Origin: Candidatus Sumerlaea chitinivorans
GTDB taxonomy: Bacteria; Sumerlaeota; Sumerlaeia; Sumerlaeales; Sumerlaeaceae
Direction of reading: 5' to 3'
Assembly (NCBI GenBank): GCA_003290465.1
Contig: CP030759.1
Coordinates: 2,926,572 to 2,990,571 of the forward strand
DNA length: 64,000 nt
Below the pieces are notes generated by a model, which was not told the origin of the DNA, made no database searches, and saw only the letters and a program-made list of their open reading frames with translations. Positions 9,922 through 17,532 of the stretch are shown in pieces; the first letter of the stretch is position 1, and every line of letters begins with the position of its first letter. The position numbers and the translations under genes were made by a program.

Positions 9922-11802
9922 TTAGCTGGATGGCGTGGGCCTTGGACCCGATACTGGTTTCTCGAGATCACGCAGCAGCTGGCTTGCTTCTTGGTATTCG
10001 CGAGTGTTTTTGGGTGCATGGTTTTCAATGTACCGCAACAGGACGCGCGCATCGTCTATGAACATGTTGTTTCGGTACAACTTCGCAAGCTCAAGCCAGT
10101 ATTGATATCGATCTGGGGCATAGCCGATTGCTTCAACAAGCGCCTGTTCTGCTTCCTCCCAGCGCTCCGGAAAATTGACCAATTCCTTTGCACGCGCGAA
10201 TGCCTGATTGGCGCGCTGCTCGTCGTTCTCGATGCGATTAGGTCCAGAGTTCTGATCCAGAAGCTTTAGGTAGCCTTCTCCCGGATACGGTTTCTGCATG
10301 CCTGCATAAAGCTCCCGAGCTGCCTCAAGGTAAGCCCGTGCCAGAGCCAGCGTCTTGGGGTCGCGGTAATAGCGTTTGCCTTTCTCGTCCCGACGTTTCG
10401 TCAACTCCTCGATTTCACTCAAAGGCAAGGCAGCATTGACTCGGTCGAGTAAAGTCTCGACCGCACTGGTTTCCGCTTGCGGGTGGGCGGTGCGAAACTC
10501 TGTCACCAGCTGCCGTGCTTCCAAGGCGCGCCCCTCTGCCAACAGCGCTTTGACTTGCCCATCGAGTTCCTCAAAGCGTTTTCCAATCTCGCCCGGCCTT
10601 GGTTCCCTAACTCCGGTTTGAGGGGATGGAGTTGTCAGCAAGTCTGCAGAGCGATGGGCCTGTACGACGTAGAGGATCGCGAGGAGCACCAAACCAACGG
10701 CTCCGATCCCCATCCAATACCGCTTGACGAAGTCCCAAGCTGAACGGCCTGCGTCAGTGACAATGGGTGCCTCCGTAATCCGGGTGGTGAGGCGGGGGGG
10801 GGTGGGGGGCGATCCCTCTGTAGCTTCTGCAGGACTTTCTGGGCCCAGCTGAAGAATCTTTCGAAGCCCCGTAGGCGTCCGCCAGCCCGTGTCGGGGGAC
10901 ACGCCCGAGGGTGTCGTCTGAGTGGGCATTCGCCGAGTTGCCCCGTCTGGAACAGGTGTAACTGAGCTTCCCCCAACGACAATCGGTCGTTTGGCACCCG
11001 CAGCTTGCTCCAACGCTTGAGCCATTTCTTCGCCTGTGGCAAAGCGCTCCGCTTTGGTTTTCTCAAGGGCGCGCATAACGACTTTCTCTGCCTCAGCAGA
11101 AATCGACGGATTGAGTTGAGACGGCGGGACTGGAGACTCGTAAATATGGCGCGTAGCAATGGCGATTGCGTTCTCGCCGTCAAACGGAACTTTGCCCGTA
11201 AGCGCGTAGTACAGACATACTCCCAACGAATAAAGGTCACTCTGCCCATCCACATTCTTCCCCGTCACCTGTTCTGGGGACATGAAACGCGGGGTTCCCA
11301 TGCTAATTCCGGTCTGGGTTCGCAGTTTCGATTCGCGGAACCGAGCGATTCCAAAGTCGGTGATTTTTGCGATGTTTTCCCGCGTCACCAAAATATTGTC
11401 GGGTTTGACGTCACGATGTACGACGCCCTGCTCATGGGCATAGTGAAGAGCGCGCGCGATTTGAGCGCCGATCAGTAAAACGTCGCGCTCTGGCAATCCC
11501 CCCTCATCAATGATCTTTTGCAGGCTTTTGCCATCCACGAACTCCATGATAATGCAGAAGGTCGCCTGGTAGGGTTCGATGTCGTAGACGGCGACAATAT
11601 TCGGATGATTGAGGCGCGCCACCACTTGCGCTTCTTGCTGAAACCGAGCCCGAAACTCCGGATCGGAGGCCATTTCCTCGGATAGCATTTTGAGCGCAAC
11701 GATCCGGTCAAGGTTGTGTTGGCGGGCTTTGTAAACAGTCCCCATACCCCCGCGGCCGATCACTTCGAGGATTTCATATTTACCCGCAATGAGTTCGCTC
11801 AT
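9922..11802 (-). CDS. Membrane Ser/Thr protein kinase (PknB-like) with C-terminal helical domain
   Basis: A 626-residue protein. Residues 1-265 are a Hanks-type kinase: glycine loop GRGGMGTVYKA (17-27), ATP lysine K38 (VALKML), catalytic HRDVKPDN (129-136), DFG (149-151), and the activation segment MGTPRFMSPEQ. All catalytic residues are present, so it should be active. A Pro/Thr-rich linker (270-350) leads to one transmembrane helix at about 362-381 (WMGIGAVGLVLLAILYVV). The outer part, about 240 residues, is helical and TPR-like, and may sense or bind a partner in the periplasm; it has no PASTA repeats. ATG start with AGG upstream. No phosphatase gene is adjacent. Confidence 0.93.
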   Translation of the reverse strand: MSELIAGKYEILEVIGRGGMGTVYKARQHNLDRIVALKMLSEEMASDPEFRARFQQEAQVVARLNHPNIVAVYDIEPYQATFCIIMEFVDGKSLQKIIDEGGLPERDVLLIGAQIARALHYAHEQGVVHRDVKPDNILVTRENIAKITDFGIARFRESKLRTQTGISMGTPRFMSPEQVTGKNVDGQSDLYSLGVCLYYALTGKVPFDGENAIAIATRHIYESPVPPSQLNPSISAEAEKVVMRALEKTKAERFATGEEMAQALEQAAGAKRPIVVGGSSVTPVPDGATRRMPTQTTPSGVSPDTGWRTPTGLRKILQLGPESPAEATEGSPPTPPRLTTRITEAPIVTDAGRSAWDFVKRYWMGIGAVGLVLLAILYVVQAHRSADLLTTPSPQTGVREPRPGEIGKRFEELDGQVKALLAEGRALEARQLVTEFRTAHPQAETSAVETLLDRVNAALPLSEIEELTKRRDEKGKRYYRDPKTLALARAYLEAARELYAGMQKPYPGEGYLKLLDQNSGPNRIENDEQRANQAFARAKELVNFPERWEEAEQALVEAIGYAPDRYQYWLELAKLYRNNMFIDDARVLLRYIENHAPKNTREYQEASQLLRDLEKPVSGPRPTPSS

Positions 11803-13785: not shown

Positions 13786-16700
13786 ATGAAAAGAGTCCTG
13801 ATCAATGTCGAGGATCGGGAGTTGCGAGTCGCCATTTTGGAGGACGATCAGCTCACCGAGTTTTATATCGAATCACTTGAAGACAAGACGATCCTGAACA
13901 ACATCTACAAAGGACGTGTCGAAGGCGTCCTGCCGGGGCTGAGTGCTGCCTTCGTGAACATCGGGCTCGAGCGGAATGCCTTCCTGCATTTCGATGACGT
14001 CCGGCCCGACTTGCGGCTTCAACTGTGGACCGAAAAACAGGGTGAAGCCGCGGCTGCGACCGAAGAGGCGGCGCCCAGTGAGTACCAACCGACCGAGGAG
14101 GAACTTGCGGTCGTTGCGACGACCACAGCCACTCCTTCGGAGGTGCCCACGGAGGTTGCGGTGAAAGAGCCCCAAATGGAGACGCGAAAGTCGCGTCGCC
14201 GTCGCCGCGGGCGGCGCGGTGGCAAAAAGCGCTTTGCGGGCACTCAGCAACCTCAACCCTCCAACCACGCTGCCTCAACCTCCACCGGAGGCGCCTCGTT
14301 TCCTCCGGCGGCATCTGCGCCCGAGCAAGCCACGCAACCACCTATTCAGCAGGGAGCGATCCCGAGCGCAGAAGTTCAACAAGCCGAACCTCCCAGCAAC
14401 GTCGCGCCTTCAACATCCCGCGAGCAGCGGCGTCGACAACGAAAGAAGAATCGTCGCGCCCAGCCCAACCAGCAGCGGCAGCAACACCCACACCCGCCTC
14501 GTTCGCAATGGACCCCGCCGCGGCCGGGTGCGGACGTGATCCCGGGGACGCGTGCTGCAACGAATCCTTACGACGTATTCACGCCCTTTGCGAAGCCTAA
14601 AAAACAGAATAATCAGAAATCCCGGCGAAAAGGTGAGCGTCAAAAAACATCGCAGTCGGGAACAGCCACCAGTTACATCTTTACTCCAACGACCTTGCCG
14701 CCAGACGTTGCTCTCGACAAAGACTCGCAAGAGGATTTCTTCGGACCGAAGAAGTCCGACGAGGGATGGACAGGGTCAGATCCTCACTCTGCAGCAGGTC
14801 ACGAAAACGCAGGGGGAGGTTCGGAGGCAAACAAGCGAACCCGTCGCTCGTCAGGGCGACGTCGCGTTGTGAAGCGACGAGGGCCAGCCGAATACGCCGT
14901 GCGCCGCAAGAAAAGCTCAGAGCCAGAACCCACGGAAGGAGCGTCCGCTGCAAAAAAGCGGACCTCTTCCAAGCGCACCTCGTCCACTAAAAGTCGTGCA
15001 ACTGAGTCGAGCACTCGGGGTAAGACCAGCAAAACGCAACGGAAGAAGGCGGCCACTCAAACGCAGACATCAAAAGCCGACGAAGCGCCCAAGCGTTCGC
15101 GCAGCGCTCGAAAAACAAAATCTGAGAAGAGTCAGGCCGAGCCCATCGCTGGGGAGGCTCCAGTCGCAGGTACGCTCGGCGGCCTTCCGACGGACACGAA
15201 AGAACAAGTTTCACCAGTCGCTGAGCTCGCGGCGTTGGAACTCGCGCAATCGGAAGTAGAACAGCCAGCTCCGAAACGTTCCACGCGTTCGCGAAAAAAG
15301 GTGAAGCAGCAAGCACCCGCGTCGGCGCCCACCCGGCCAGAGGTTCCCTCAAGCCCTGCCGGAGAGCAAAAGCCTCCAACCGAAGAGGTTCGGGAGACTG
15401 CGACGACTGAGGAAAAGCCACGACGGCGAAGCACGCGTGGGACGCGACAGCGACGCAAAGCCGAGGCCGGTGTGGCCGAAACTGCTCCTACAGCAGTTCC
15501 TCAGGAAGAGGTTGCCTTGTCTCAGCCCGAAGCGCCTCCCGCCCTTGAGCCCAGAACCCATGAGGTACAGGCACCCGAGGTTGGTGCAGCGGGAAAAGCC
15601 ACGGCTGTCCCAAGCGCCACGGGCCAAGACGAAACGGAGACGCTTGGAGAAGGACCTGTTGTCGCGGAAACGGTCACAGAGCTGCTGTCGCCTGTTGCCG
15701 TTAGAGAAACGCCCGAAGCAGTTGCAGACCAACTGCCAACGGAGAGCGTAGCGCCCCCAGAGAAAAAGCAAACGCGCACTGGCCGATCCCGTCGCGAGCA
15801 AGCGCGCCGGCGGCGGGAACGAGCGCGTGCCAAGACCCAAGAGGCTGTGGCTCCGCCATCCGAGACAACCGGTGAAATTCCCGAAGCTTCCCAGCAGGAG
15901 AGGGTGCTGGAAACGCAGGCCCCCTTGCAAGTTTCCATCCCCGAGTTGTTGGTCGAAGCACCCGAGCTCGAAGTGGCAGCAGCCTCCGCAGTGGAACAAG
16001 AAGCTGAAGAAGTTGCTGAGGTTGTGCCCGAGTGGATTGCTGAGGAAAGAGTCTCGGAAGCGGAACTCGCTGCGCCATCTGCCTCAACGGCCGTAGTTGA
16101 GCCACTTCAGCCAGCAGCTGTACCTCCTGCCCGTGTGCATCCTCGGCGGATTCCGAGCGTCCCAGAGGCCTTGCATAAAGGCGACGAGATTATGGTGCAG
16201 GTCATCAAGGAGGAAATCGGCCTCAAGGGAGCACGGATCTCGACTTATCTTTCGCTTCCGGGGCGTTATCTCGTGTTGTTGCCATACGCGCGGGAGGAGG
16301 GGGGAGTCTCGCGCCGTGTGGAAAGCGTGGAAGAGCGAAAGCGCCTGAAGCGCCTGCTCCGTCAGATTCGAGAGGAGCGCGGGCTCAAAGACATTGGTTT
16401 CATTGTTCGAACGGCGGGAGTGGATCGGGGGGAAGCAGAGATTCGCAAAGATGTGGATTTCCTGCTCAACGAGTGGCGTAAGGTCCAAGAACGCGAAGCT
16501 ACGTCGCGTGCCCCCGCCCTGCTCTACGACGATAGCGATATTCTTTATCGGCTCTGTCGCGATGTGTTTGATGAGAGCATTTCTGAGATTCTCATTGATT
16601 CGCGCACAGAGGCCGAAAACCTGCGCGCAATCCTTACCAATATGATCCCGGAACTCGTGGACCGCGTCAAAGTCTACGAAGGGGTCGAGAACATTTTTTC

Positions 16701-17532
16701 ACACTTCCAAGTGGATCGCATGCTCGAGAAAGCCCGCCGACGGAAGGTGTGGCTGAAGAGCGGTGGCTACATCATCATTGATGAAGCAGAAGCATTGACC
16801 GCCATCGACGTGAACACAGGCAAATTCGTGGGCAAGGACGATCAGGAGAAGATGATCCTGAAAACGAATCTCGAGGCGGCTCGGGTGATTGCCCGCGAAC
16901 TCAAACTCCGCGACATCGGCGGCCTGATCGTGATCGATTTCATCGACATGCGCGATCCCCGCAATCGCGAGACCTTACTCAACGAATTCCGGGCCTATCT
17001 CAAAAAAGACCATGCGAAAACGGCGGTCTCGAATATCAGCGAGTTTGGCCTCGTGGAGATGACTCGCAAGCGAGTGCGGCAAAGCCTGCGCAAGACCCTC
17101 TTTACGGACTGCCCCTACTGCCAGGGAGCCGGCATCGTCCTCAACGAGCAACAGATCTGGATTAAGATAAAGTATGACATTGTCGCCAAGCTCGCGAAAT
17201 ACGTCCCAGCGCCCGACTTGCGTGTGATTGTGCATCCTCAAGTGAAATCCTTCATTGAGCGCAATTATCGGGAGGTGGTGCGGCGCCTCGAAAAGAAGTA
17301 TTCTGCACAGATTTCCATCTGTGATGACAAGACCATCCACATAGAGAACTATCGGTTCGAAGTGCTCCAGCACCCGAATTCACGCCCGGTGGAGGAGCTG
17401 CAATCCCAAGCGGAGGAGACCAAGCCGACAACCGTTGTCACCCTCGAAGAGCCAGAAACGTTTGAGAATCAAGCACCGCCGGATTCCTCCGCTCCGAGCT
17501 CTGAGGAGGAACCGTCACCTTCTTTGGCTTAG
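13786..17532 (+). CDS. rng: Ribonuclease E/G with a ~710-residue insertion in the S1 domain
   Basis: A 1248-residue RNase E/G family endonuclease, which processes rRNA and degrades mRNA. Residues 1-78 (MKRVLINVEDRELRVAILED, NIYKGRVEGVLPGLSAAFVN) are the RNase H-like start and first half of the S1 domain. The second S1 half resumes near 795 (KGDEIMVQVIKEE). Between them lie about 710 residues (about 82-790) rich in Glu, Ala, Pro, Arg and Lys, apparently disordered, with many basic tracts such as RRRRGRRGGKKR. The catalytic DNase I-like part is intact: DVNTGKFVG near 1007 and IDFIDM near 1049 supply the metal-binding aspartates, and CPYC near 1108 is the zinc-link. E. coli RNase E carries its disordered scaffold at the C-terminus instead; here the C-terminal tail is only about 50 residues. 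The ATG start has only a weak AAGGA upstream. Confidence 0.93.
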   Translation: MKRVLINVEDRELRVAILEDDQLTEFYIESLEDKTILNNIYKGRVEGVLPGLSAAFVNIGLERNAFLHFDDVRPDLRLQLWTEKQGEAAAATEEAAPSEYQPTEEELAVVATTTATPSEVPTEVAVKEPQMETRKSRRRRRGRRGGKKRFAGTQQPQPSNHAASTSTGGASFPPAASAPEQATQPPIQQGAIPSAEVQQAEPPSNVAPSTSREQRRRQRKKNRRAQPNQQRQQHPHPPRSQWTPPRPGADVIPGTRAATNPYDVFTPFAKPKKQNNQKSRRKGERQKTSQSGTATSYIFTPTTLPPDVALDKDSQEDFFGPKKSDEGWTGSDPHSAAGHENAGGGSEANKRTRRSSGRRRVVKRRGPAEYAVRRKKSSEPEPTEGASAAKKRTSSKRTSSTKSRATESSTRGKTSKTQRKKAATQTQTSKADEAPKRSRSARKTKSEKSQAEPIAGEAPVAGTLGGLPTDTKEQVSPVAELAALELAQSEVEQPAPKRSTRSRKKVKQQAPASAPTRPEVPSSPAGEQKPPTEEVRETATTEEKPRRRSTRGTRQRRKAEAGVAETAPTAVPQEEVALSQPEAPPALEPRTHEVQAPEVGAAGKATAVPSATGQDETETLGEGPVVAETVTELLSPVAVRETPEAVADQLPTESVAPPEKKQTRTGRSRREQARRRRERARAKTQEAVAPPSETTGEIPEASQQERVLETQAPLQVSIPELLVEAPELEVAAASAVEQEAEEVAEVVPEWIAEERVSEAELAAPSASTAVVEPLQPAAVPPARVHPRRIPSVPEALHKGDEIMVQVIKEEIGLKGARISTYLSLPGRYLVLLPYAREEGGVSRRVESVEERKRLKRLLRQIREERGLKDIGFIVRTAGVDRGEAEIRKDVDFLLNEWRKVQEREATSRAPALLYDDSDILYRLCRDVFDESISEILIDSRTEAENLRAILTNMIPELVDRVKVYEGVENIFSHFQVDRMLEKARRRKVWLKSGGYIIIDEAEALTAIDVNTGKFVGKDDQEKMILKTNLEAARVIARELKLRDIGGLIVIDFIDMRDPRNRETLLNEFRAYLKKDHAKTAVSNISEFGLVEMTRKRVRQSLRKTLFTDCPYCQGAGIVLNEQQIWIKIKYDIVAKLAKYVPAPDLRVIVHPQVKSFIERNYREVVRRLEKKYSAQISICDDKTIHIENYRFEVLQHPNSRPVEELQSQAEETKPTTVVTLEEPETFENQAPPDSSAPSSEEEPSPSLA

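Follow-up and report, generated by a model that had tools for sequence, protein, structure and literature searches.

A ribonuclease E/G of Candidatus Sumerlaea chitinivorans with a 712-residue low-complexity insert inside its S1 domain

The gene analysed here lies on the forward strand, at positions 13786 to 17532 of a stretch of 64,000 nucleotides (the window) from the genome of Candidatus Sumerlaea chitinivorans (contig CP030759.1, positions 2,926,572 to 2,990,571), a member of the uncultured bacterial family Sumerlaeaceae whose 3.29 Mb genome is contained in one contig and whose relatives are the Sumerlaeota. It encodes a ribonuclease of the RNase E/G family in which the S1 domain is split by a low-complexity insert of 712 residues. 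We consider it probable that a surface loop of S1, and not the C-terminus, holds the disordered region that serves this enzyme as a scaffold and for RNA binding, as had been suggested by an earlier inspection of the window without database searches (the sequence-only reading). The layout of the gene is as follows.

13786..17532, + strand: RNase E/G gene, 1248 residues, stop codon included in the coordinates (TIGR00757, 472.6 bits)
13786..14007, + strand: residues 1-74, N-terminal part and first half of S1, with F56 and F66 (E. coli F57 and F67); aligned to E. coli RNase E 1-73
14008..16143, + strand: residues 75-786, low-complexity S1 insert of 712 residues, with no Pfam match
16144..17361, + strand: residues 787-1192, second half of S1, 5' sensor, DNase I-like catalytic domain, zinc link and small C-terminal domain, from Pfam, PDB alignment and residue mapping
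17362..17529, + strand: residues 1193-1248, short acidic C-terminal tail, about 53 residues after the core

The open reading frame (ORF) runs from an ATG start to a TAG stop with no internal stops. Its score with TIGR00757 (cut-off 325.95) places the product in the Rne/Rng (RNase E/G) family, and a Pfam search of the whole ORF recognized PF10150 at residues 823-1097 (6.7e-100, 334.4 bits against a cut-off of 25.5) and PF20833 at residues 1109-1192 (8.7e-08). The scores with the E. coli-type RNase E model NF008074 (303.5 bits, cut-off 908) and the RNase G equivalog NF008689 (399.1 bits, cut-off 594) are below threshold, the latter being still the best equivalog score. The long C-terminal scaffold of RNase E proper is absent, as the tail comprises only 53 acidic residues; the short C-terminus noted by the sequence-only reading is thus real.

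With the catalytic chains of E. coli RNase E in the PDB, phmmer gives two separate matches, one of residues 1-72 to E. coli 1-73 (independent E-value, i-E, 1.4e-07) and one of residues 781-1173 to E. coli 79-467 (i-E 3e-77). In E. coli numbering, S1 is interrupted at approximately positions 73 to 88. The limits originally proposed for the split, near residues 78 and 795, lie within ten residues of 75 and 786. On the far side of the insert the catalytic D303, N305 and D346 of E. coli are found as D1008, N1010 and D1051, the 5'-sensor R169 and T170 as R875 and T876, and the zinc-link cysteines as C1109 and C1112, as the sequence-only reading had inferred when it called the catalytic motifs intact; the equivalents of D1008, N1010, D1051, R875 and T876 are present in all six intact Sumerlaeaceae proteins. 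Both halves of S1 are present, with the equivalents of the RNA-contact residues F57, F67 and K112. In E. coli RNase E, the +2 base of the substrate is predicted to lie between F67 and K112, which would stack on it from either side (PMC8522691). Their counterparts, F66 and K814, flank the insert on opposite sides, and are kept in 6/6 Sumerlaeaceae proteins and in 30/30 S1-insert proteins of other phyla; this conservation across the insert argues that the two halves of S1 would fold together. Judging from these residues, the enzyme looks active as an endoribonuclease.

The insert is composed of 16% K+R, 13% D+E, 11% P, 14% A and 13% hydrophobic residues, and contains no Pfam domain even at E<=1, in agreement with its initial description as a low-complexity segment. 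Charges are not distributed at random: there are nine K/R-rich blocks (0.8 expected, maximum of 4 in shuffled sequences), and charge patterning exceeds that of all of 1000 shuffles. The many basic tracts first noticed are confirmed, but they take turns with acidic ones, and the net charge is no more than +19. Charge patterning above the shuffles is found in all six Sumerlaeaceae inserts, and the insert of the window protein carries arginine-rich charge blocks of the kind by which RNase E that forms bacterial ribonucleoprotein bodies (BR-bodies) is recognized. Five short motifs stand out in it.

14080..14094, + strand: residues 99-103, EYQPT, conserved motif (insert alignment, codon comparison)
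14197..14223, + strand: residues 138-146, RRRRGRRGG, basic RGG-like box, shared by every Sumerlaeaceae insert and by most sister-family C-terminal tails
14545..14589, + strand: residues 254-268, GTRAATNPYDVFTPF, conserved motif of Sumerlaeaceae only (insert alignment, codon comparison)
14722..14742, + strand: residues 313-319, DSQEDFF, conserved motif of Sumerlaeaceae only (insert alignment, codon comparison)
14872..14904, + strand: residues 363-373, KRRGPAEYAVR, conserved basic-aromatic motif (insert alignment, codon comparison)

We have compared the gene with those of relatives gathered by Pfam-based genome searches. All intact Sumerlaeaceae genes, from six genera, encode an insert of 495-795 residues at the same site of S1 and a C-terminal tail of 16-53 residues (a seventh gene, cut by a contig end, is not counted among them). 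Elsewhere in the phylum the S1 linker measures 22-68 residues and the C-terminal tail either 0-66 or 254-459 residues; in place of an insert, many of these proteins have a long tail that is basic. Several sister families combine a long tail with a short S1 linker, which lends plausibility to the suggestion that the insert stands in place of the usual tail. In a tree of the catalytic core the six Sumerlaeaceae proteins form one clade with full support in the Shimodaira-Hasegawa-like approximate likelihood ratio test (SH-aLRT), and a single gain within Sumerlaeota is thus the simplest reading. Downstream neighbors are also common to relatives: a GH3 gene is shared with locus L034, and phosphodiesterase and TPR genes with locus L033.

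Across the Sumerlaeaceae inserts five motif blocks occur in a fixed order (EYQP, RRRRGRRGG, GTRAxTNP[YF]DV[YF][TS]P[YF], DSQxDFF and RRGPxYYAxR), although not all five are found in each family member. At motif positions the codon differences from the window gene are 110 synonymous and 40 nonsynonymous; the motifs are under purifying selection. Outside them, most positions of the insert do not align within the family.

These comparisons bear on whether the insert exists at all in the protein. Low-complexity sequence favors assembly errors, and a misassembly, a frameshift, or an intein-like element lost from the mature protein might be suspected; yet the insert is stop-free in six separately assembled genera, its motif order, codon-level selection and downstream neighbors are conserved, and Pfam finds no intein or other domain in it. 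We have rejected all three readings on these grounds; an artefact of any of these kinds is extremely improbable, and the sequence-only reading had already held that this is no simple misassembly.

A less drastic alternative is that most of the insert is a disordered linker that has grown by neutral expansion because the loop tolerates insertions, and that it has only a handful of functional motifs and does not act as a scaffold. Its variable length within one family, the failure of most positions to align, and the repeated arrival of inserts at this site of S1 speak for it. Neutral expansion, however, does not account for ordered motif blocks under purifying selection, for charge patterning beyond the shuffles in all six inserts, or for an RGG-like box in every Sumerlaeaceae copy, and we regard it as improbable.

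The RGG-like box alone, among the Sumerlaeaceae motifs sought in the sister families of the phylum, is common to both. In the form [RK]RGx[RK]G[GR] it occurs in 6/6 Sumerlaeaceae inserts and in 13/15 long Sumerlaeota C-terminal tails, where about 0 would be expected from composition; charge patterning in the sister-family tails is likewise of the same kind as in the inserts. In other phyla the box is found in 3/16 N-terminal, 8/30 S1 and 4/21 C-terminal regions. Four near-identical RRGRRGG boxes (KKRPSRRGRRGGVGRKRP) occur in the N-terminal extension of another RNase E/G (L071, G178:C52).

Large S1 inserts recur in at least two lineages besides Sumerlaeaceae. In a second phylum (that of genome G254), families f199, f281, f290 and others have S1 inserts of about 200-790 residues and almost no C-terminal tail; inserts of 230-235 residues occur in genomes G208 and G066. 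The S1-insert state requires three changes on the core tree, and thus at least three gains; this is a quick tree with many weak forks, on which the second-phylum inserts are a gain separate from that of Sumerlaeaceae. These proteins share with the window enzyme a large S1 insert and a nearly absent tail, but their inserts are more acidic (D+E 14-28%, K+R 8-21%), and the two that were examined lack the Sumerlaeaceae motifs. An LPGESLSKYR-like sequence, a candidate docking motif, is repeated in the large S1 inserts of two f199 proteins (L098 and L106). Over the whole sample, in which the non-Sumerlaeota proteins were picked for long ORFs, so that the counts are not prevalences, disordered regions of 150 or more residues are located in S1 only in 35 proteins, at the C-terminus only in 31, at the N-terminus only in 13, at both N- and C-termini in 4, and in both S1 and C-terminus in 1. 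A large S1 insert and a long C-terminal tail are almost never found together.

The site of insertion is already known from much smaller examples, and what we describe is a far larger version of a known insertion; the placement inside S1 is real, but not without precedent. Alpha-proteobacterial and plant RNase E carry charged inserts of 50-150 residues, predicted to be disordered, at the matching site, and a Caulobacter fragment that includes the insert (residues 1-274) binds RhlB (PMC4245959). Alignment with the Caulobacter structure (PDB 4oxp) breaks off after query residue 76 (chain 98) and is taken up again at 791 (chain 166), with 67 residues between these anchors in Caulobacter and about 714 here. 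The two systems are alike in the site and in the charged, low-complexity nature of the insert; they differ in that 712 residues lie far outside the 50-150 range, and in that Caulobacter RNase E also has a long scaffold tail, whose arginine-rich charge blocks are tied to condensates (PMC10412687), whereas the Sumerlaea tail has 53 residues. With the E. coli RNase E scaffold the insert has in common its length, disorder and charge, basic blocks, conserved short motifs and an attached catalytic core of the same type, but the E. coli segment follows the core and this one lies within S1. RNase G and short Rne/Rng proteins are comparable in having a core with a short C-terminus; RNase G is not known to have a long disordered region. 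No published S1 insert of such size was found in our literature search, which did not cover the five-type RNase E classification of Ait-Bara and Carpousis (2015). What is new here is the size of the insert, its motif content, and its recurrent and nearly exclusive placement in S1.

The view that the S1 loop houses the scaffold draws together the split homology with key residues kept on either side, the six-genus inserts with their ordered motifs and 110 to 40 codon differences, the confinement of the long disordered region nearly always to a single position, the RGG-like box and charge blocks common to inserts and sister-family tails, the analogy with the condensate charge blocks (PMC10412687) and RhlB-binding fragment (PMC4245959) of Caulobacter, and the presence of a PNPase gene in the host genome (G000:C1:34334-36370). 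On this view the two halves of S1 would pack together, with the loop exiting beside the RNA-entry cleft; the basic blocks and the RGG-like box would hold RNA close to the active site, and the short motifs GTRAxTNP[YF]DV[YF], DSQxDFF and RRGPxYYAxR would dock partner proteins. We propose that, through this docking and RNA holding, each protomer, as well as a tetramer should it form, may act as the hub of a degradosome-like assembly or condensate. Sumerlaeaceae PNPase ORFs (799-892 residues) exceed the 689-position family model, which suggests that they are extended; the added part might be involved in contacts with RNase E/G.

A loop in that location could instead chiefly regulate catalysis, by competing with RNA at the cleft or by hindering the closure of S1 (autoinhibition or substrate gating); a scaffold role, if present, would then come second. 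The presence of acidic as well as basic stretches is in keeping with such gating, which is the main rival to the scaffold role, and both may hold together. As the chief function we think it unlikely, albeit less so than neutral expansion, because it does not explain why 500-800 residues should carry so many basic blocks and a number of conserved motifs, nor the near-exclusivity of S1 inserts with C-terminal tails.

Several observations weigh against the S1-loop scaffold itself. An AlphaFold2 model of residues 1-1195, from a five-sequence alignment, has a mean pLDDT of 39; it does not build S1 and is uninformative on its fold. To our knowledge, the insert motifs match no docking peptide, including the binding peptides of E. 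coli RNase E. A long disordered region is absent in 15/36 proteins (Sumerlaeota and one outgroup), so that a scaffold is dispensable in this phylum; the host genome also has a gene for RNase Y, and RNA decay may depend mainly on that enzyme; and the RGG-like boxes of inserts and tails could be convergent. RNase Y and RNase E/G co-occur in most Sumerlaeota genomes.

A few further observations concern other genes. A Ser/Thr protein kinase gene lies near the RNase E/G gene (window 9925-11802, minus strand). Among the other RNase E/G proteins, L070 (G125:C14), a 1078-residue ORF, has two tandem catalytic domains in one frame, and in L115 (G479:C41), a 1389-residue ORF, about 890 residues of open frame precede S1; the same genome, G479, encodes a second RNase E/G (L122), which bears a C-terminal tail.

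As a more tentative extension of the S1-loop scaffold, which we find possible but doubtful, the RNase E/G scaffold may be a module with three alternative positions, namely the N-terminus, the S1 loop and the C-terminus; it would have passed from tail to S1 loop in the ancestor of Sumerlaeaceae with its RGG-like RNA-binding box kept, so that the recruitment of partners and RNA would be linked directly to the way in which S1 closes over its substrate. The sequences of RNase E scaffolds change very rapidly in evolution; the size, conserved motifs and repeated independent origin of the inserts suggest that bacteria can carry the disordered basic region at alternative positions of RNase E/G. Surveys in which degradosome scaffolds are sought at the C-terminus alone overlook whole lineages, and a family with the region in the S1 loop, beside the RNA cleft, together with sister families whose tails likewise bear motifs, constitutes a natural experiment on whether RNA decay and condensates depend on how the scaffold is placed with respect to the active site.
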